Source: Kiritimatiellota bacterium (GTDB lineage Bacteria; Verrucomicrobiota; Kiritimatiellia; JAAZAB01). Taken from it: a stretch of 10,723 nucleotides of DNA. The notes below the pieces were generated by a model that ran no database searches, was not told the DNA's origin, and saw only the letters and a program-made list of their open reading frames with translations. Location of the stretch: positions 1 to 10,723 of the forward strand of contig VSJD01000138.1 of assembly GCA_008636095.1 (NCBI GenBank). The letters are read 5' to 3'. This document shows, in pieces, positions 3,540-10,681 of the stretch; within the stretch, counting starts at the first letter, position 1, and each line of letters opens with the position of its first letter. The translations under genes were made by a program, and so were the position numbers.

Positions 3540-6500
3540 TCGCGCCAGCGCCTTTCTTGGAATTCTAATTTTCCATTGACCTTCTGCAGTCGGGGCATAC
3601 GTAGCAGGACGGCGGTAAACGCCCGATACGTATCCGCCGACATTTGCTGATTAATATTGTAGTCCAACCAGATTTCCTCAATGGGTGAATTCTGAATGGG
3701 CGACAAATCCCGCACAGCCGATTCGCTGATATCCAGCCACTTCAGTGGCATATCTCGCAAGGGATCCAAATCCTTAACCCGGGTAGCGCGCACGTTCAGC
3801 ATTTCCAGGGCAAGACTACGCACCGGCGACAGATCCCGGATATTGGTTTTGCTCAAGTTCAGCCCCCGCAAAGGCATGTTGGCCAGTGGGGTCAGGTCCC
3901 GCACCCGCGTCTGGCTCAGGTCCAGGTGATCGAGTTTTATACCTTTCAACGGGCTAAGGTCGGCCACCTCGGTGCGGTTGATGATCAACTCCGTGAGCGG
4001 CATTCCCGCCAGAACCGTGATATCGCGGATGCGGCTCGCGGTCGCGATCAGTCGCTTCAGCTTCATACCGGTTAGCGGCGCCAGATCGGATACTTCCGTG
4101 TAGCTGATATTCAGGGACTCCAGCGGCAGACCAGCCAGCGGTTTCATATCCCGAATAGTCAGACGGCTGAGCGTCAGATCCTGCAGGGGCATGCCTTTCA
4201 AAACCGACAAATCCGTAACCCGTGTGCCGGCCAGGTTGAGCTTGGTCAGCGGCATGCCAGTCAGCGGCGCAAGGTCCTTGACCCGTGTGTGACGGACACA
4301 CACTTCCCGCAGAGGCAATCCCTTGAGTGGTGCCAGATCGCTCAGTGGCGCCTTAACCGGTGACTCGTGCCATTCGTCCAGGCGCGTAACGGCGCACACG
4401 ACCGCGCGTAAATCCGGCAAGCCGGCCAGCGGCGAGATATCCTTCAAATCCAAGGCAATCAGTTCGGCCCGCACGATTTTACCGGCATCATCCGTTACGA
4501 GTGAAATATTGAATTCGGTCAGACCAGGATTCCGGTCGAGTAACTCCTGGCGCACGGCCGCGCCATCCGGATGAGTGGTCCTGGCCGTGGCTGACACGGT
4601 TTCAATACGCGTGGTCTCATTCGAATCAGATGCGATCACCGTCGCCTGCTGTAACGCCGCCAAGGCCGGTGCGTAAGCCTGAACAAAGGCTGTCTGTCCG
4701 TATTGCTCCTGGTAACTGGCCACGCTTTTGGCCAGCACCTTGGCCATTGGCGGCGGATATTTTTTTCGATAGATGGCCGCCAGGCATACCTCACAACCGG
4801 GCAAAGGTTCCGCCTTCTCGCCTCGGCGAAGTGCTCTCTCGGAGCCGGGCGCTAAGTCAGGCTCCGCCGAGGCGGGAGTTTCCGTCTTTGCCAAGGCTTC
4901 GCCGGACACGCCGACCGCATCCACCTGGGCGGCGCGCAACAGCAGGATAAAATCACTCCGAGCCTGCTCTTCCCGCTGACGGCTTTTACGCTCTTGCAGT
5001 TTGGCTTTCAGTGGCGCCGACAGGAACGGACCGGCCTGACTCCAGAAGGTTTCGGCCGCAGCCAAGTTTCCGTCGCGGAGGGCCACCAATCCATGCACCA
5101 GTGCCGTGTCCGGCGTCGTATTGGTTCCTAGTCGAGCTTTTTTTTCTTCCAGGGACAAATCCTGTAGTCGGATCACTTTGGGCTGGACAATCTGACCGGC
5201 GCTGACGACGGTAATTTTTTCCACAAGGATTGAGTTGTCCTGCACATCCCGTATTACCAGGCGTTCCGATCCCCTGGTCAAAGCAACGCAAACTTCCTGA
5301 TCCTTTTGCGACCGGAACGAATCCAAGAGGCGCTGATCAGCGCGGCCGGCTTCGGCCAGCATGCTTGCCAGCGTCAGAAGGTCGGACCGGTTTGCGTTCA
5401 ATGCAACCTGATTAGTGGCCTGCTGGGCCACTGCCAGCGCGGCGCCGGGATTGCCATCCAGCAAGCGTGCGGCAATATCGTTAAGTACATCCTGCCATTG
5501 CCGACGCTGTTCCTGCTTCTGTGCCTCGGCCGCCTGACGCATCCCTGTCTGTTGGGCCCTATCTAAATCGAGCCATTCCTGGACTTTGGCATTTCGTTCC
5601 GCCATGGTCTCGGTCTGAAACCGCCCCACATACTGTTCATACATGGTGGCCGCCTCCCGCCATTTATGCCGGTCCAGCAGGGGCTGAACCTTGTCATGCA
5701 GGGCTTTCATATCCGCGGCCAGGGCGGCGCGCTTCTGTTCCCTGATGTGCGCGATTTCGTCCTCGGCCGCCTGGGCATAGCGCGTACCTTTCGATTGCGC
5801 GGCTATCTTTGTAAATTGCTGGATGGCTTCATTGTATTGGCCGGGATTTGCCTGGTACCACTGCGATGCCACTTCTATCCGGTGCTGGGCCAAAACTTCC
5901 TCCTTTGCCAACTCAGGCTCCGCCGGAGCGCTTCCCCCTACGCGAAGCCGCTTCGGAGGGACAAGTTGCCCAGGCAAATCGCCCAGGCGAGTCGGCGCGG
6001 CGAGGGCTTTCGTCTTTGCCAACGTGTCGCCGGACACGCCGTCCTCTGCCGTCTTTCGTCCCGCCTTCGCCAAGGCTTCTGCAGACAGGCCGCCATCCGT
6101 CGTCTGCCCTCCGTTTTGCGGGGTTGCGGCGGACTTGGGCTTCACGAGCATATTCATCACGAGCAGGCAGGGAACTGCTAAGGCTAGGATCATAATCACG
6201 GCGGCCAACCATTCCGGTTTTATCCATTGCCGGGGCCGAGTAATGATATAAGGCACCGGCTCGTCTGGGCGAAGCGCACTTGTCAGGGCGACTTGTCCCG
6301 CCGATGCGTCCAGTTCCTTCAAGTATTGTTCGCGCGCCACACAGCGTTTCATGGTACTGGTGCCGGCCGGCGGCATGGGCCCTTCCGGAAACAGTTCCAA
6401 ACGCGCACGGATCATGTCGCGGATGACCTCCGGCCAGTCCTTCTGGCGATGGGCAGGGTTCTTGGCCATCATTTTTTCAATCAGGCAGGCCACGGCCATG

Positions 6501-7327: not shown

Positions 7328-7333
7328 GAGGAA
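7328..7333 (+). promoter_or_regulatory. Repeat-borne ribosome binding site setting the pilin start
   Basis: GAGGAA lies 7 nt before ATG 7341. The same GAGGAAATG-x-AG-x-ATGCAG arrangement occurs at 10003-10021 before the last gene of the cluster. It supports translation starting in the repeat, because the next in-frame ATG (7482) lies after the processing site and would remove it. Confidence 0.55.
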
Positions 7334-7340
7334 ATGCAGG

Positions 7341-7607
7341 ATGCAGAGAACAGACAACAGACGCCGGCCTGCCCTGCGAAGCCTTTTGGCGAAGCAGGGA
7401 CGACAGACCATCCGGGCTGACGGTTTTTTTCAATCGGAAATCGGAAATCGAAAATTAAAAATTTCTTCACGTGGTCAGGCCATGGCGGAATATGTTATTA
7501 TCGTTGGGTTGCTCATGGCCGCCTTGGGCATTTTGACGTTTTTTTTCGTTACGTTTAAAGAATACGGCGGGCGGATTTTAGCGCTGGTCGCGTCGGAATA
7601 TCCTTAA
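7341..7607 (+). CDS. Flp/type IVb pilin-like protein with long repeat-derived leader
   Basis: An 88-residue open frame from ATG 7341. The part recognisable as pilin is G45|Q46-A-M-A-E-Y-V-I-I-V followed by a hydrophobic helix, with Glu at +5 and Tyr at +6 after the predicted prepilin-peptidase cut, the Flp-family signature. The mature product would be about 43 residues, a normal Flp size. The 45-residue leader is basic and entirely repeat-encoded, far longer than the usual 10-25. No ATG lies between 7341 and the processing site, so the start is either 7341 or a rare codon such as the ATT aligned with the ATG of the 10118 start. It heads the plus-strand Tad cluster and lies 66 bp before the second pilin. 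It could be a minor pilin or a decaying copy. Confidence 0.7.
   Translation: MQRTDNRRRPALRSLLAKQGRQTIRADGFFQSEIGNRKLKISSRGQAMAEYVIIVGLLMAALGILTFFFVTFKEYGGRILALVASEYP
7372..7399 (+). repeat. GAAGCC-TTTT-GGCGAA hairpin within the pilin leader
   Basis: CCCTGC (7372-7377) pairs with GCAGGG (7394-7399) and GCC (7381-7383) with GGC (7388-7390) around a TTTT loop, separated by a symmetric GAA/GAA internal loop. The core resembles copy 1 of the element in the kinase gene (6050-6086, minus strand), including the trailing GGGACGA-x-AGAC, so it appears to belong to the same family placed here outside any conserved domain. Confidence 0.6.
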
Positions 7608-7627
7608 TGCCGAACACCGAACACCTT
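7607..7627 (+). repeat. Short heptamer run after the first pilin
   Basis: ATGCCGA, ACACCGA and ACACCTT follow one another starting at the last base of the pilin stop codon. They belong to the same ACAYCGA-type unit family as the array at 10640-10681, which likewise follows the stop of a repeat-led Tad gene. Confidence 0.5.
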
Positions 7628-7673
7628 GCAAGCAGTTACTCGCGAAATATCTAATAATGAAGGAGGGCACACT

Positions 7674-7907
7674 ATGAATCGCATGCGTAAAGGCAAGCAT
7701 GGCCAGGCTATGACCGAATATATCATTATCGTTGCCATTATCGCCTTGGCGGCGCTGGCGGTTTTTGGTCTGTTTGGCGACCGGATTCGTGCCATGATCG
7801 GCGGCGCCGTCACGGACCTGGGCGGAGACCAGAGTGAAGTTGATACCGCCACGGAAACTAAATCGGCGGACTATCTCAAAACCCTGGGCACCGAAACTAC
7901 TCCCTGA
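7674..7907 (+). CDS. flp: Flp/type IVb pilin
   Basis: A 77-residue protein, the probable major pilin subunit of a Tad pilus. Short basic leader MNRMRKGKHG, then the prepilin-peptidase site G10|Q11-A-M-T-E-Y with the conserved Glu +5 and Tyr +6, then the hydrophobic helix IIIVAIIALAALAVFGLFG and a short polar acidic tail. Length and layout are normal for Flp. The ATG at 7674 has a perfect AGGAGG (7661-7666) seven nt upstream, the best ribosome binding site in the window, which fits high expression; upstream TTG 7626 is unlikely. The stop is 16 bp before the TadE-like gene, so they are probably co-transcribed. After cleavage, N-methylation and assembly at the inner membrane would be expected by the family's biology, but the machinery is not encoded here. 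Confidence 0.88.
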   Translation: MNRMRKGKHGQAMTEYIIIVAIIALAALAVFGLFGDRIRAMIGGAVTDLGGDQSEVDTATETKSADYLKTLGTETTP

Positions 7908-7923
7908 GTGGGCTTACGCCGCC

Positions 7924-8457
7924 ATGGTGCAGACACGTCATGCCGAGGGACAAGCCCTGATTGAATCCTGCATCGTGATCGGCCTGATTTGTCTCCTGCT
8001 GATGGGTATCTTTCAGCTGGCCCAGCTGTTCATGGCCCAGGAAATTCTGGATTACGCCGCCGGACGCGGGGCCCGCGCCAAGGCCGTCGGCTTCAATGAT
8101 TTCATGGTATCGAAAACCGTGCGCATCGGCGCCATCGCCAATGCCGGCGCGCTGATGGTTCCCGAGCGCTCGGGCGGCGGGCCCTGGGCCCAATGGACCC
8201 GCCAAGAATCGCCGCGTATTCCCCACTATATGCAGAGCGACGAATGGGAGCTCGACTTCATCCTGAATTACGCGCTATGGGATACGATTGTGTGGTCTTC
8301 CCCGGCATCGGGCGCCGACATCCTGCATTTCGAGGTAAACCAAGCGGTGCCGCTGATGTTCTTTTCCAACGTGTTCAAGGCGTTTTTCTCCGCATCTGCC
8401 GTTCCGATGCAAGGCGTTGCGGACATTGAAAACCATTATCCTCTTTACTTGCAATAA
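7924..8457 (+). CDS. TadE-like minor pilin (pseudopilin)
   Basis: A 177-residue protein from ATG 7924; the frame stays open further upstream (to 7834) but that would overlap the pilin gene. MVQTRHAEG9|Q10-A-L-I-E-S matches the pseudopilin processing site with Glu at +5. It is followed by the helix IVIGLICLLLMGIFQLAQLFM, then a family-like DYAAGRGARAKAVG segment and about 120 periplasmic residues. TadE proteins are prepilin-peptidase-processed minor pilins needed for Flp pilus assembly in characterised Tad systems. It lies 16 bp after flp and ends 2 nt before the TadG-like gene. Assigned by N-terminal signature; the C-terminal part is not specific. Confidence 0.78.
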   Translation: MVQTRHAEGQALIESCIVIGLICLLLMGIFQLAQLFMAQEILDYAAGRGARAKAVGFNDFMVSKTVRIGAIANAGALMVPERSGGGPWAQWTRQESPRIPHYMQSDEWELDFILNYALWDTIVWSSPASGADILHFEVNQAVPLMFFSNVFKAFFSASAVPMQGVADIENHYPLYLQ

Positions 8458-8459
8458 TC

Positions 8460-10004
8460 ATGACATCTTCCTCCCCAGTCCACCACCCCGCCGCACCGGC
8501 GGCAACGGCCGCATCAGCGGCCAGCCCGCAGTCGCTACGCGCCAGCGTTGCGGGCGGGTGCGTAGCATTGCGAGCAGGTCAAACCATGATTTTCATGATC
8601 ATGGCGCTTTTCATTCTGGCGGTGGTCATTGTCTGGATTTTCGATGTGCACACGGTGTTGCATCTCAAAGCGCGCACACAAAACGCCGGCGACGCTGCGG
8701 CACTGGCCGCGGCGCGCTGGCAGGGCATTTCACTTAACCTGATCGGTGATTTGAACATTCTCCAGGCATTAGCCTTGAGCCGCGGCGACACGAATGCCTC
8801 GGAACAGATAAAGAATGTGCAAGCACGACTATGCTTTGTGGGCCCCCTGGTCGGCCTGCTGGCATCCCAACAGGCGGCGAAAAACAATCGTGCCTACGTC
8901 AACCCCGACTATACGGCCAACCTGCTGGCGCATGCGGACCTCGTGCTGTCCTATTACGCCGCCGACACCAACCGCTTCCGCGAGCCGTATTCCGGCGCCT
9001 GGCCGGAATACGGCGGTATGCTCGCCAACATTGCGGCACAGGGTGTGGCCGCTGGCCCCGACAACACGTGGTATTTTACCGATTCTACTGACAGCCATTG
9101 GCTTCTGTCACGTAATTTTTACGAGGCAGTGGCCGGCCTTGACTGGTGTTGGTTTTACTGGCATGGCCTGACCACCTTGCAATCCTATTCCGATTATCAA
9201 TATTGGCTGGATTTGCCGACTGCCCAACCGTCGCCCAACACCTATAACTGCGAAGTGTTTGGACTCGGCCTGCTCCCGTTCACGGACGTTCTGCCGTATG
9301 GCACCAACGATGTGGAACACATGAACCGCCTCCGGTCCGACCGCGGGATCAGCACAGACACGATTTCCAACGAAGTCGCCGGCATGGTATGCACATGGTA
9401 CGGATATGCTTGGAGCGCATGGACGGCGTTAGCGCCCACTAATGATTTTCCAATGATCTCGGACGTCAAACCGGAATATGATTATACCGGTGCCGATGTG
9501 GTTATCCGCGTCGAAGCTCAGCCTGATTCGCGCATGCCCACTGCCTTTCCTGCGCTGCAACCATTTTTAATAAAAGCCTCACCATCTTCGGGCGCACGCC
9601 TGACCCAGGCCGCCGCCGTCGCCGGGGCCGTGACTTGGACAGCCGCTGGTAAACCGTTCGGGTACCTGGCCGTGGACGGCAGTCCTGTGCGCCCCGATGC
9701 CTACAACCTGGTTCTACCGGCATTTCACAACGTGTGCCTGATTCCCGTGGACACCGCCACGGGATCCAATGCCGGCGCTTACGACTTGGCCTGGCGTAGG
9801 CATACCCAGGATCATCTGCCAACCTATATGCTAAGTGGTCTGGCCGGCTTGGAGGCTGATTGCTGGTATTGCCAGCAAATGCAGACCTGGGAGGATTCTG
9901 CATTCCGCCAGCAGGGCATTGACTGGTTAAGTGACACCAACCATACCTGCACCCCCTCTGAAGGCGGTCCGGGACAACACGGCGGCACACGTCGGGGACA
10001 TTGA
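8460..10004 (+). CDS. TadG-like pilus assembly protein
   Basis: A 514-residue protein. Residues 40-90 show the putative Flp-assembly TadE/G signature: GQTMIFMIMALFILAVVIVWIF as membrane helix, DVHTVLHLKARTQNAGDAAA and LAAAR. The Glu at +5 of true prepilins is replaced by Phe, as expected for TadG, which need not be processed. The remaining 420 residues are probably extracytoplasmic, rich in Trp, Tyr and Asn/Asp, with no von Willebrand A metal site that I can see. The first 39 residues are an Ala/Ser/Pro-rich extension with no counterpart in the family. The ATG at 8460 is 2 nt after the tadE stop without a Shine-Dalgarno sequence, suggesting coupling. The stop overlaps the composite repeat that carries the next gene's ribosome binding site. 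Confidence 0.75.
   Translation: MTSSSPVHHPAAPAATAASAASPQSLRASVAGGCVALRAGQTMIFMIMALFILAVVIVWIFDVHTVLHLKARTQNAGDAAALAAARWQGISLNLIGDLNILQALALSRGDTNASEQIKNVQARLCFVGPLVGLLASQQAAKNNRAYVNPDYTANLLAHADLVLSYYAADTNRFREPYSGAWPEYGGMLANIAAQGVAAGPDNTWYFTDSTDSHWLLSRNFYEAVAGLDWCWFYWHGLTTLQSYSDYQYWLDLPTAQPSPNTYNCEVFGLGLLPFTDVLPYGTNDVEHMNRLRSDRGISTDTISNEVAGMVCTWYGYAWSAWTALAPTNDFPMISDVKPEYDYTGADVVIRVEAQPDSRMPTAFPALQPFLIKASPSSGARLTQAAAVAGAVTWTAAGKPFGYLAVDGSPVRPDAYNLVLPAFHNVCLIPVDTATGSNAGAYDLAWRRHTQDHLPTYMLSGLAGLEADCWYCQQMQTWEDSAFRQQGIDWLSDTNHTCTPSEGGPGQHGGTRRGH
8534..8566 (+). repeat. Stem-loop in the 5' end of the TadG-like gene
   Basis: GCTACGC (8534-8540) and GCGTAGC (8560-8566) pair perfectly around a GC-rich 19-nt loop. 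It lies in the part encoding the non-conserved N-terminal extension, just before the GQTMIF motif, so it may be another short element that joined the 5' end of a Tad gene. No second copy is seen in the window. Confidence 0.4.
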
Positions 10005-10008
10005 GGAA
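10003..10008 (+). promoter_or_regulatory. Repeat-borne ribosome binding site for the last Tad gene
   Basis: GAGGAA begins inside the TadG-like stop codon (10002-10004) and is 7 nt before ATG 10016, the same spacing as at 7328-7343. No such sequence precedes the alternative ATG 10118. Confidence 0.5.
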
Positions 10009-10134
10009 ATGTAGAATGCAGCAACCAGACGACAGACGACGGACGACAGACGACAGATGCCGGACCACGCGGGACGCCGGTTTCTTTCAATCGGAAATCG
10101 AAAATCGAAAATCGAAAATGTATTCCCGCGGCCA
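10003..10134 (+). repeat. Composite repeat forming the leader of the second TadE-like gene
   Basis: The second copy of the module order at 7328-7475: GAGGAAATG with ATG 10016; CAGACGA-type heptamers (10026-10060, degenerating to about 10074); CGGTTTCTTTC; AATCGGA and three AATCGAA heptamers (10089-10116); then ATG 10118 and the codons for YSRGQAM. Because three 7-nt units make 21 nt, the first array encodes a 7-residue peptide repeat (DDRRRTT, DDRCRTT). Confidence 0.8.
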
Positions 10135-10621
10135 GGCCATGGTAGAATTCATGGTAGGCTTGGTGGTGGTGCTTGTGCTTCTGGCGGGCTTGATCCAGAT
10201 TGGCCAACTTACGCATGCGCATACACGTACCATGATTGCCGCTCGTGCACAAGCCGGCCAGCTTGCCATGGCGTCTACGCGGCCAGTGTCCGAAACCGCG
10301 TCGCTCATTTCCGACTGGGTCCTGGGCGTCGACCTGCGGCGGCACACGCATGACGATATGGCCATGGTCACCAGCAATGCCGTTACATTACCCGGCGAAC
10401 TCGTCGGGCAAGCCCATCTGGAACAGGTGCCCAATGCGCCGGTTAGTGCACTGTCCACGCTGAGGGATTCGCCGAACCCGGCCGGCGATTTTTTTCTGGT
10501 CAAGGGGGAAGCATCGGAATCCGTTAACATCCTGCCGATAATCCGCCGCCTGGTGTATGCCCACTCCACGCTGGAGGTGGAAAGCGACGCCTGGCTGGTT
10601 TGGACAAAGGGAATCTACTGA
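10016..10621 (+). CDS. Second TadE-like minor pilin
   Basis: A 201-residue frame from ATG 10016, or 167 residues if translation begins at ATG 10118. The processing site S-R-G|Q-A-M-V-E-F has Glu at +5. It is followed by the helix MVGLVVVLVLLAGLIQIGQL and a TadE-type stretch HAHTRTMIAARAQAGQLAMA, then about 115 extracytoplasmic residues ending in a W-x-x-W-T-K-G-I-Y tail. The 10016 start is favoured by GAGGAA and by the matching arrangement at 7341. The 10118 start gives a conventional 5-residue leader (MYSRG) but no ribosome binding site. It is the last gene in the window and probably in the same operon as the TadG-like gene, whose stop it nearly overlaps. Confidence 0.75.
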   Translation: MQQPDDRRRTTDDRCRTTRDAGFFQSEIENRKSKMYSRGQAMVEFMVGLVVVLVLLAGLIQIGQLTHAHTRTMIAARAQAGQLAMASTRPVSETASLISDWVLGVDLRRHTHDDMAMVTSNAVTLPGELVGQAHLEQVPNAPVSALSTLRDSPNPAGDFFLVKGEASESVNILPIIRRLVYAHSTLEVESDAWLVWTKGIY

Positions 10622-10639
10622 AAACGAAGGATTAAGCAA

Positions 10640-10681
10640 ACATCGAACATCCAACATTGAACGCCGAACGTCCAATAATGA
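10640..10681 (+). repeat. Heptamer array after the second TadE-like gene
   Basis: Six contiguous 7-nt units: ACATCGA, ACATCCA, ACATTGA, ACGCCGA, ACGTCCA, ATAATGA. The array starts 18 nt after the stop codon. There are no spacers, so it is not CRISPR. Confidence 0.75.

Follow-up and report, generated by a model that had tools for sequence, protein, structure and literature searches.

Why should two different prepilin genes of one tad pilus operon begin with the same succession of 7-bp tandem repeats, read in frame as part of the protein? The question is raised by a 10,723-nucleotide stretch of a Kiritimatiellota bacterium genome (assembly GCA_008636095.1, contig VSJD01000138.1, forward strand), which as a whole is called the window here. 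In this window a Flp-pilin-like prepilin gene and TadE2, the second TadE-like prepilin gene, both carry heptamer arrays in their leaders. According to the available part of the source (PMC4471445), a prepilin leader is a cytoplasmic, hydrophilic segment of 6-26 residues that is cut after a Gly. Both window genes show the features of such a class III signal peptide, namely a hydrophilic leader ending in Gly, followed by Glu5 and a hydrophobic stretch (SRG/QAMAEYVII in the first gene, SRG/QAMVEFMVG in TadE2; the slash marks the cleavage site). We consider it likely, with a probability of roughly two in three, that disposable prepilin leaders tolerate heptamer arrays, which colonise them and replace each other there.

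The two composite leaders

The two genes and the parts of their leaders are as follows.

7341..7607, + strand: Flp-pilin-like prepilin (first prepilin gene), by motif SSRG/QAMAEYVII and place
7328..7346, + strand: left edge GAGGAAATGCAGGATGCAG, Shine-Dalgarno-like GAGGAA and two ATGs spaced 7 nt
7344..7362, + strand: CAGACAA-type heptamer array, first prepilin leader
7421..7436, + strand: link CGGTTTTTTTCAATCG, exact copy only here and at 10078
7432..7463, + strand: AATCGGA-type heptamer array, last before the cleavage Gly (codon 7473-7475)
10016..10621, + strand: TadE2, PF07811, E 8.9e-6
10003..10021, + strand: left edge GAGGAAATGTAGAATGCAG, overlapping the stop codon of the upstream TadG-like gene
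10026..10057, + strand: CAGACGA heptamer array, TadE2 leader
10078..10093, + strand: link CGGTTTCTTTCAATCG
10089..10119, + strand: AATCGAA heptamer array, TadE2 leader; in-frame alternative ATG at 10118, Gly codon 10130-10132

A first-pass annotation of the window had described an identical order of parts at both sites, and exactly this order is present: GAGGAA, 7 nt, ATG CAG, a CAGACNN array, CGGTTTYTTTC, an AATCGRA array and SRG/QAM. The first site starts with GAGGAA-ATGCAGG-ATG(7341)CAG and the second with GAGGAA-ATGTAGA-ATG(10016)CAG; the start codons thus lie within repeat-type sequence, as had been noted. The leaders read in frame, as also described, as MQRTDNRRR, GFFQSEIGNRKLK and SRGQAM in the first gene and as MQQPDDRRR, GFFQSEIENRKSK and SRGQAM in TadE2. 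The Flp-like label of the first gene comes from its motif and place, with no Pfam match at E<=0.01. From 7406 and 10063 on, 57 of 73 bases are identical in a gap-free alignment (score 76), which ranks second among 105 pairs of array leaders from the same genome; 43 bases (7363-7405) separate the first array from the aligned part in the first leader and 5 in the second. Within the genome the exact CGGTTTYTTTCAATCG link is limited to these two leaders, which argues for copying between them. GAGGAAATGNAGNATGCAG has no further exact copy in the genome; 17 sites match it with 1-2 mismatches (GAAGAAATGCAGAATGCAG four times) and 34 with 3, compared to 4 for a reversed control pattern.

The first-pass annotation went too far in treating the leaders as one composite of fixed content: they draw on many heptamer families, which are mostly unlike between orthologues. 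Likewise, the composite does not behave as a mobile palindromic element of the type of miniature inverted-repeat transposable elements or Rickettsia palindromic elements, as its exact parts occur only at the two window sites and leaders use many unit families.

Heptamer arrays and prepilin genes in five genomes

To place these leaders in context, we analysed 40 contigs (448,228 bp) of the same genome and similarly partial samples of four relatives, five genomes of one family in total, using a home-made gene caller. At score 11, the 448 kb hold 44 arrays at lag 7 compared to 0-4 at lags 5, 8, 10, 11 and 13. At score 13 there are 24 lag-7 arrays and none in one dinucleotide-resampled copy; at the same score lag 14 gives a further peak of 12 arrays, expected to be the same arrays, and a separate peak of 19 arrays was seen at lag 18. 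The 44 arrays are mostly intergenic (37), with five at gene 3' ends, one at a 5' end and one internal. In two loci (L031, L036) arrays adjoin gene 3' ends and, judged by eye, seem to provide the stop codon. Among gaps of at least 30 bp in the five samples, arrays occupy 10/66 between convergent, 33/345 between tandem and 2/89 between divergent genes. Mostly intergenic and scarce between divergent genes, they thus resemble heptameric simple sequence repeats (SSRs). Clustering of 135 arrays (71 from the background, 64 from leaders) by unit gives 28 clusters, the largest nine of which comprise 104 arrays; eight of these nine mix background and leader arrays. Further afield, 194 genomes sampled from the phylum were searched for an exact 19-bp GAATGCA array, and 8 have one.

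To compare prepilins with other genes we used a blind rule, by which codon usage fixed the coding onset of each gene, pilin or other, as its anchor and an array was required in the open frame. The pseudopilin set comprised 106 genes, i.e. 24 N_methyl matches of the own genome (22 above the Pfam cut-off, the array-bearing L076 and L077 below it) and 82 of 84 matches in the four relatives; one G008 match lacking the motif and one G004 match that is TadE2 were left out. By this rule an array is found in 33/106 pseudopilins but in only 10/686 other called genes (odds ratio 31, Fisher p = 8e-23), the ten including one TadE-like prepilin. Genome by genome, the counts are 13/24 vs 4/285, 6/22 vs 2/133, 5/17 vs 2/92, 4/19 vs 1/100 and 5/24 vs 1/76. 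In the same 3-kb loci, arrays occur in 30/92 pilin-like genes and in none of 50 non-pilin genes, which rules out a regional bias. An earlier background count (array in the first 120 nt of 1/322 genes) was set aside, as the same caller finds just 5/24 in pseudopilins. Anchored instead at the cleavage motif, 32/106 pseudopilins carry an in-frame array (14/24 in the own genome; 6/22, 5/17, 4/19 and 3/24 in the relatives). The array of L061 (-187 to -145) is out of frame; including it, 15/24 own leaders have an array within 150 nt. In the window, leader arrays at score 11 are found in two of the five Tad prepilins. The proposal that prepilin N-termini are preferred coding sites for repeats is borne out by the contrast with other genes, the array-free neighbours and the in-frame position of the arrays. 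The first-pass annotation had also raised the opposite case of repeats spread genome-wide with no preference for prepilins; the repeats are genome-wide, mostly in intergenic positions, but the prepilin bias is strong.

In all 32 in-frame pseudopilin arrays, ATG, GTG and TTG are absent between the array and the Gly. With no start codon from the array to the cleavage residue, the array must therefore be translated if the gene works. In 20 of the 32 the array ends at most 12 nt from the Gly codon. The first prepilin gene of the window likewise lacks ATG, GTG and TTG between its last array and the Gly. In TadE2 the alternative start considered in the first-pass annotation does exist as an in-frame ATG at 10118, with no Shine-Dalgarno-like site. 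Could the leaders nevertheless be an illusion of annotation, with plain intergenic repeats preceding genes whose true starts are rare or unrecognised codons close to the Gly? The mainly intergenic position of arrays, the ATG at 10118 and a start codon behind the array in 4 of the 13 Tad leaders with arrays that were examined would suit this idea; the 32 start-free stretches and an open-frame array frequency 21 times that of other genes make it very improbable.

Among homologues from metagenomes, the leaders of both families are periodic at seven residues. Amino-acid identity within leaders at lag 7 is 0.147 for Flp-like and 0.194 for TadE-like proteins, compared to 0.04-0.08 at other lags. Background arrays were also translated into five-residue words, which cover 19.6% of the 41 Flp-like leaders vs 1.7% when these leaders are shuffled; an unexplained coverage of 4% in the mature parts of the TadE-like set was disregarded. 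At least one such word is found in 24/41 Flp-like and 10/17 TadE-like leaders; the word-free leaders include long ones with no visible repeat (P0082, P0084, P0086). Two homologues with similar leaders, P0079 and P0080, differ in their array by seven residues, i.e. three units.

How such leaders could arise may be pictured as follows. The leader would stay in the cytoplasm and be cut by prepilin peptidase at the conserved Gly, with little constraint on length or on the greater part of the sequence, and 7-bp tandem arrays from a limited palette would keep arising or moving, chiefly between genes. A gene would survive when a stop-free array enters or replaces the stretch from start to cleavage site, whereas arrays elsewhere in coding sequence would usually be lost. 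Leaders would hence accumulate arrays that are translated, discarded and, over evolution, swapped for other arrays; parts of leaders would also be copied within one operon, as between the two window genes. An in-frame array should cost little in a hydrophilic, cytoplasmic leader that is cut off after the Gly, which fits arrays that often reach up to the cleavage site. Removal at the Gly would thus explain the tolerance, and tolerance rather than use would underlie the bias, provided that the genes are expressed and their leaders cleaved. Arrays that are stop-free in all three sense frames make up 45/63 leader arrays vs 70/142 background strands (p = 0.004), a comparison that is partly circular because the leaders came from open frames. 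A split into 'stop-bearing' unit families (16/71 vs 1/64) was post hoc and partly mislabelled and was not used.

Several results weigh against tolerance of arrays in disposable leaders. Under the strictest rule, with no start codon allowed between the array and coding onset +30, the counts fall to 10/106 vs 2/686 (p = 7e-8). The caller places many pseudopilin starts 3' of the arrays (array within the called gene in 5/24), and because of this misplacement the background starts may be wrong too, a problem which the blind rule avoids only partly. Ten of the 24 own N_methyl matches have no in-frame leader array. A ligase gene of the own genome (L096 6643-6673, C115), MurC/Mpl-like by its motif and one of the ten background genes counted above, starts with an AATCGAA array, with MSPIENRKSKIENFS before the domain, so that tolerance is not confined to prepilins. 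In distant genomes with the GAATGCA repeat, leader arrays were present in 0/14 loci examined in G115 (16 matches) and 0/9 in G208 (124 matches); the cleavage motif is missing in 7 of 30 loci of these two genomes, top-scoring matches favour canonical leaders, and the 7-bp excess is small in G115 (10 vs 7 at lag 8) and clear in G208 (15 vs 0). In 24 other relatives only one of 25 top matches has a leader array, located upstream at -160 to -132. Finally, leader arrays score higher than background arrays (17.5 vs 13, p = 1e-4) and are slightly purer (0.88 vs 0.83, p = 7e-4), neither of which pure tolerance predicts. As a separate observation, many of the 124 N_methyl matches of G208, a genome of the same phylum, have near-identical scores.

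The higher score and purity would suit another reading, in which the arrays are selected on/off switches of surface-structure genes and the reading frame shifts whenever a single 7-nt unit is gained or lost. Seven is not a multiple of three, the arrays lie between the start and the mature part, P0079 and P0080 differ by three units with the frame preserved, and there is a precedent: as far as the available part of PMC3894217 describes, GCAGA repeats in a leader-peptide gene control the Pil1 pili of Streptococcus gallolyticus. Leader arrays are, however, short and degenerate, no longer than background arrays (median 32 vs 31 nt), and no off state was seen, though open-frame searches would miss one. 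We therefore regard such phase variation as improbable.

Turnover, probable copying and possible expression signals

If disposable leaders tolerate arrays, how stable are the arrays once they are in place? Among 166 reciprocal best pseudopilin pairs of the five genomes, in-frame arrays are present on both sides in 22, and a gene is more likely to have one if its orthologue does (odds ratio 4.3, p = 3e-4). In 17 of these 22 pairs, however, there is no common unit (at most 1 mismatch, either strand), including pairs whose aligned mature parts show identities of 95% over 63 aa, 89% over 150 aa and 86% over 158 aa. For example, GAAAATC in L069 stands against AATCAGC in its G003 orthologue (the pair with 95% identity over 63 aa), and GTTCTTG/AACGAAG in L073 against AATGCAG/CATTCTG in its G004 orthologue (89% over 150 aa). 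Of 18 pairs with at least 80% identity, five have arrays on both sides and six on one side only. That related genes often have different repeats there suggests that the leader is a safe and fast-changing landing place. It is conceivable, if rather unlikely, that more than tolerance is involved and that leaders are replaceable cartridges, into which an active process writes arrays of the palette while the mature pilin stays nearly constant, so that the two would be separately evolving modules.

The Tad prepilins behave similarly. For TadE2, 18 of 19 relatives' loci were taken, of which 17 have the motif, and the own gene was added; at an array score of at least 9, nine of these 18 genes have leader arrays, built from several different units. 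For the first prepilin gene, 13 of 21 loci have the motif and four have arrays, all within the genus. An array leader is found on the first TadE-like gene of G004 but not on its orthologues here and in G003. In G003, the first prepilin orthologue (L274 near 1509) reads SSRSQALAEY, with the cleavage Gly replaced by Ser.

TadE2 of G003 also contains the stretch that the two window leaders have in common, scoring 80 against TadE2 of the window and 51 against the first gene; compared with its own orthologues in G002-G004, the leader of the first gene reaches just 20-23. Because TadE2 of G003 has the stretch and the first gene's orthologues do not, it most likely went from TadE2 to the first gene, a direction that we infer from this distribution. 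The same data could be read to mean that arrays at the junction serve as recombination ports, i.e. short homologies for exchange between leader and pilin, with the prepilin bias reflecting shuffling. The 57/73 identity of the window leaders, the closer match of the first leader to TadE2 of G003 than to its own orthologues, the unrelated units in most orthologue pairs, and CGTCTGT-like arrays at the leader/mature junction of six own-genome pseudopilins would agree with this. Set against it, the change is visible in the leader (swaps of mature parts were not looked for), and copying could be a by-product of the repeats; we see only a small chance that this accounts for the bias.

Do the arrays supply expression signals? 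The first-pass annotation had derived the ribosome binding site from the repeat. For this speaks that GAAGAAATGCAG edges intergenic repeats as well; against it, GAGGAA is conserved beside differing arrays. It follows the tadG stop in G000, G003, G004, G007 and G008, which represent three genera with mostly different arrays (G002 has GAAGAA), and within the genus it is present at the first prepilin gene of three genomes out of four. In general, the repeat is thus probably not the source of the ribosome binding site. It would still be conceivable that prepilin translation is tuned by start codons or RNA structure contributed by the arrays. ATG lies inside GAATGCA-type units, the tadG/tadE2 junction (stop, GAGGAA, array) is kept across genera, and some leaders fold strongly (z to -7.2). 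As a group, though, array leaders are no more structured than array-free ones (33 vs 72, mean z -0.89 vs -0.84, p = 0.79; L057, at a contig edge, excluded), so that a general hairpin role was dismissed despite single stem-like leaders such as L253. Tests for start codons in more than one frame 5' of the array give a best p of 0.01, with four of six comparisons above 0.05, and the idea that arrays provide starts in all frames irrespective of the reading frame is accordingly weak. A role as expression elements thus appears very doubtful. Adjacent arrays often run from purine-rich to pyrimidine-rich (13 vs 1 among 32 pairs).

Operon context, known repeats and meaning

The window contains an AraC-type regulator, a URO-D-like gene, threonine synthase, a protein kinase bearing leucine-rich repeats (LRR) and a partial tad pilus operon. 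The remaining operon genes and two intergenic arrays are listed below.

7610..7625, + strand: intergenic CCGAACA heptamer array, directly after the stop of the first prepilin
7674..7907, + strand: second Flp-like prepilin, weak Flp_Fap match (E 0.011), ordinary array-free leader MNRMRKGKHG/QAM
7924..8457, + strand: TadE-like gene, PF07811, leader ordinary in this genome; array leader in the G004 orthologue
8460..10004, + strand: TadG-like gene, PF13400, leader with no heptamer array
10639..10670, + strand: intergenic AACATCG heptamer array 3' of TadE2, score 10

In NCBIfam the five tad genes give only matches below the cut-off, and an Rfam search returned nothing at the gathering threshold. 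The few close homologues with names come from metagenome-assembled genomes of Kiritimatiellae, Kiritimatiellota or Verrucomicrobia. By eye, the TadG-like leader contains a GC-rich, non-heptameric, partly inverted repeat-like stretch at 8480-8590, and linkers of the kinase/LRR gene (4794-4925 and 5905-6110) contain GC-rich repeat-like stretches, e.g. CTTCGCCAAGGCTTC on the + strand, apparently another kind of repeat tolerated within coding sequence. The left edge of the window has a CAGAGGT-type array (4-28) and, near 80-92, a reverse-complement stretch, TCTGACCTCTGTC.

Repeat DNA in frame within coding genes is known from the Rickettsia palindromic elements, which are longer, defined elements. 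The enterobacterial RU elements also lie in frame within genes, according to the available parts of PMC2759123 and PMC2229807, and are longer and defined as well, whereas the present case concerns heptamer arrays in a cleaved leader. Intergenic heptamer arrays as such are already known in other bacteria. The SSRs of Xanthomonas and Nostoc (PMC4692102) are, like those described here, 7-bp tandem repeats in many copies, mainly intergenic and scarce in coding and divergent regions; in contrast, their units are G-rich and quadruplex-forming and the available text shows no prepilin-leader niche, while here other families and a coding niche are found. Similarly, the TAACTGA heptamers of Beggiatoaceae, Cyanobacteria and Bacteroidetes (PMC4679880) are 7-bp direct repeats near starts and stops, with copies in open reading frames mostly at protein ends. 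They consist, however, of one heptamer whose forward form stops all frames, and the part of that report at hand gives no gene-function pattern, as opposed to the clear pattern of prepilins here. The pilus leader peptide of Streptococcus gallolyticus is similar in that a translated leader at a pilus locus holds short tandem repeats; as far as the accessible portion of PMC3894217 goes, it differs by 5-bp units, an upstream leader-peptide gene and attenuation, compared to 7-bp units in the prepilin's own leader. A prepilin-leader niche of heptamer arrays and its turnover were not found in the open-access literature searched.

In conclusion, these prepilins offer a measurable case of coding sequence that accepts repeat DNA in a part of the protein that is made and then removed. 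In practical terms, a simple gene caller shortens such genes, and prepilins in these genomes may be mis-annotated. If disposable leaders do tolerate arrays as proposed, the published range of 6-26 residues (PMC4471445, as given in the part available) would need widening, and prepilin leaders would be a natural recorder of the birth and turnover of repeats.

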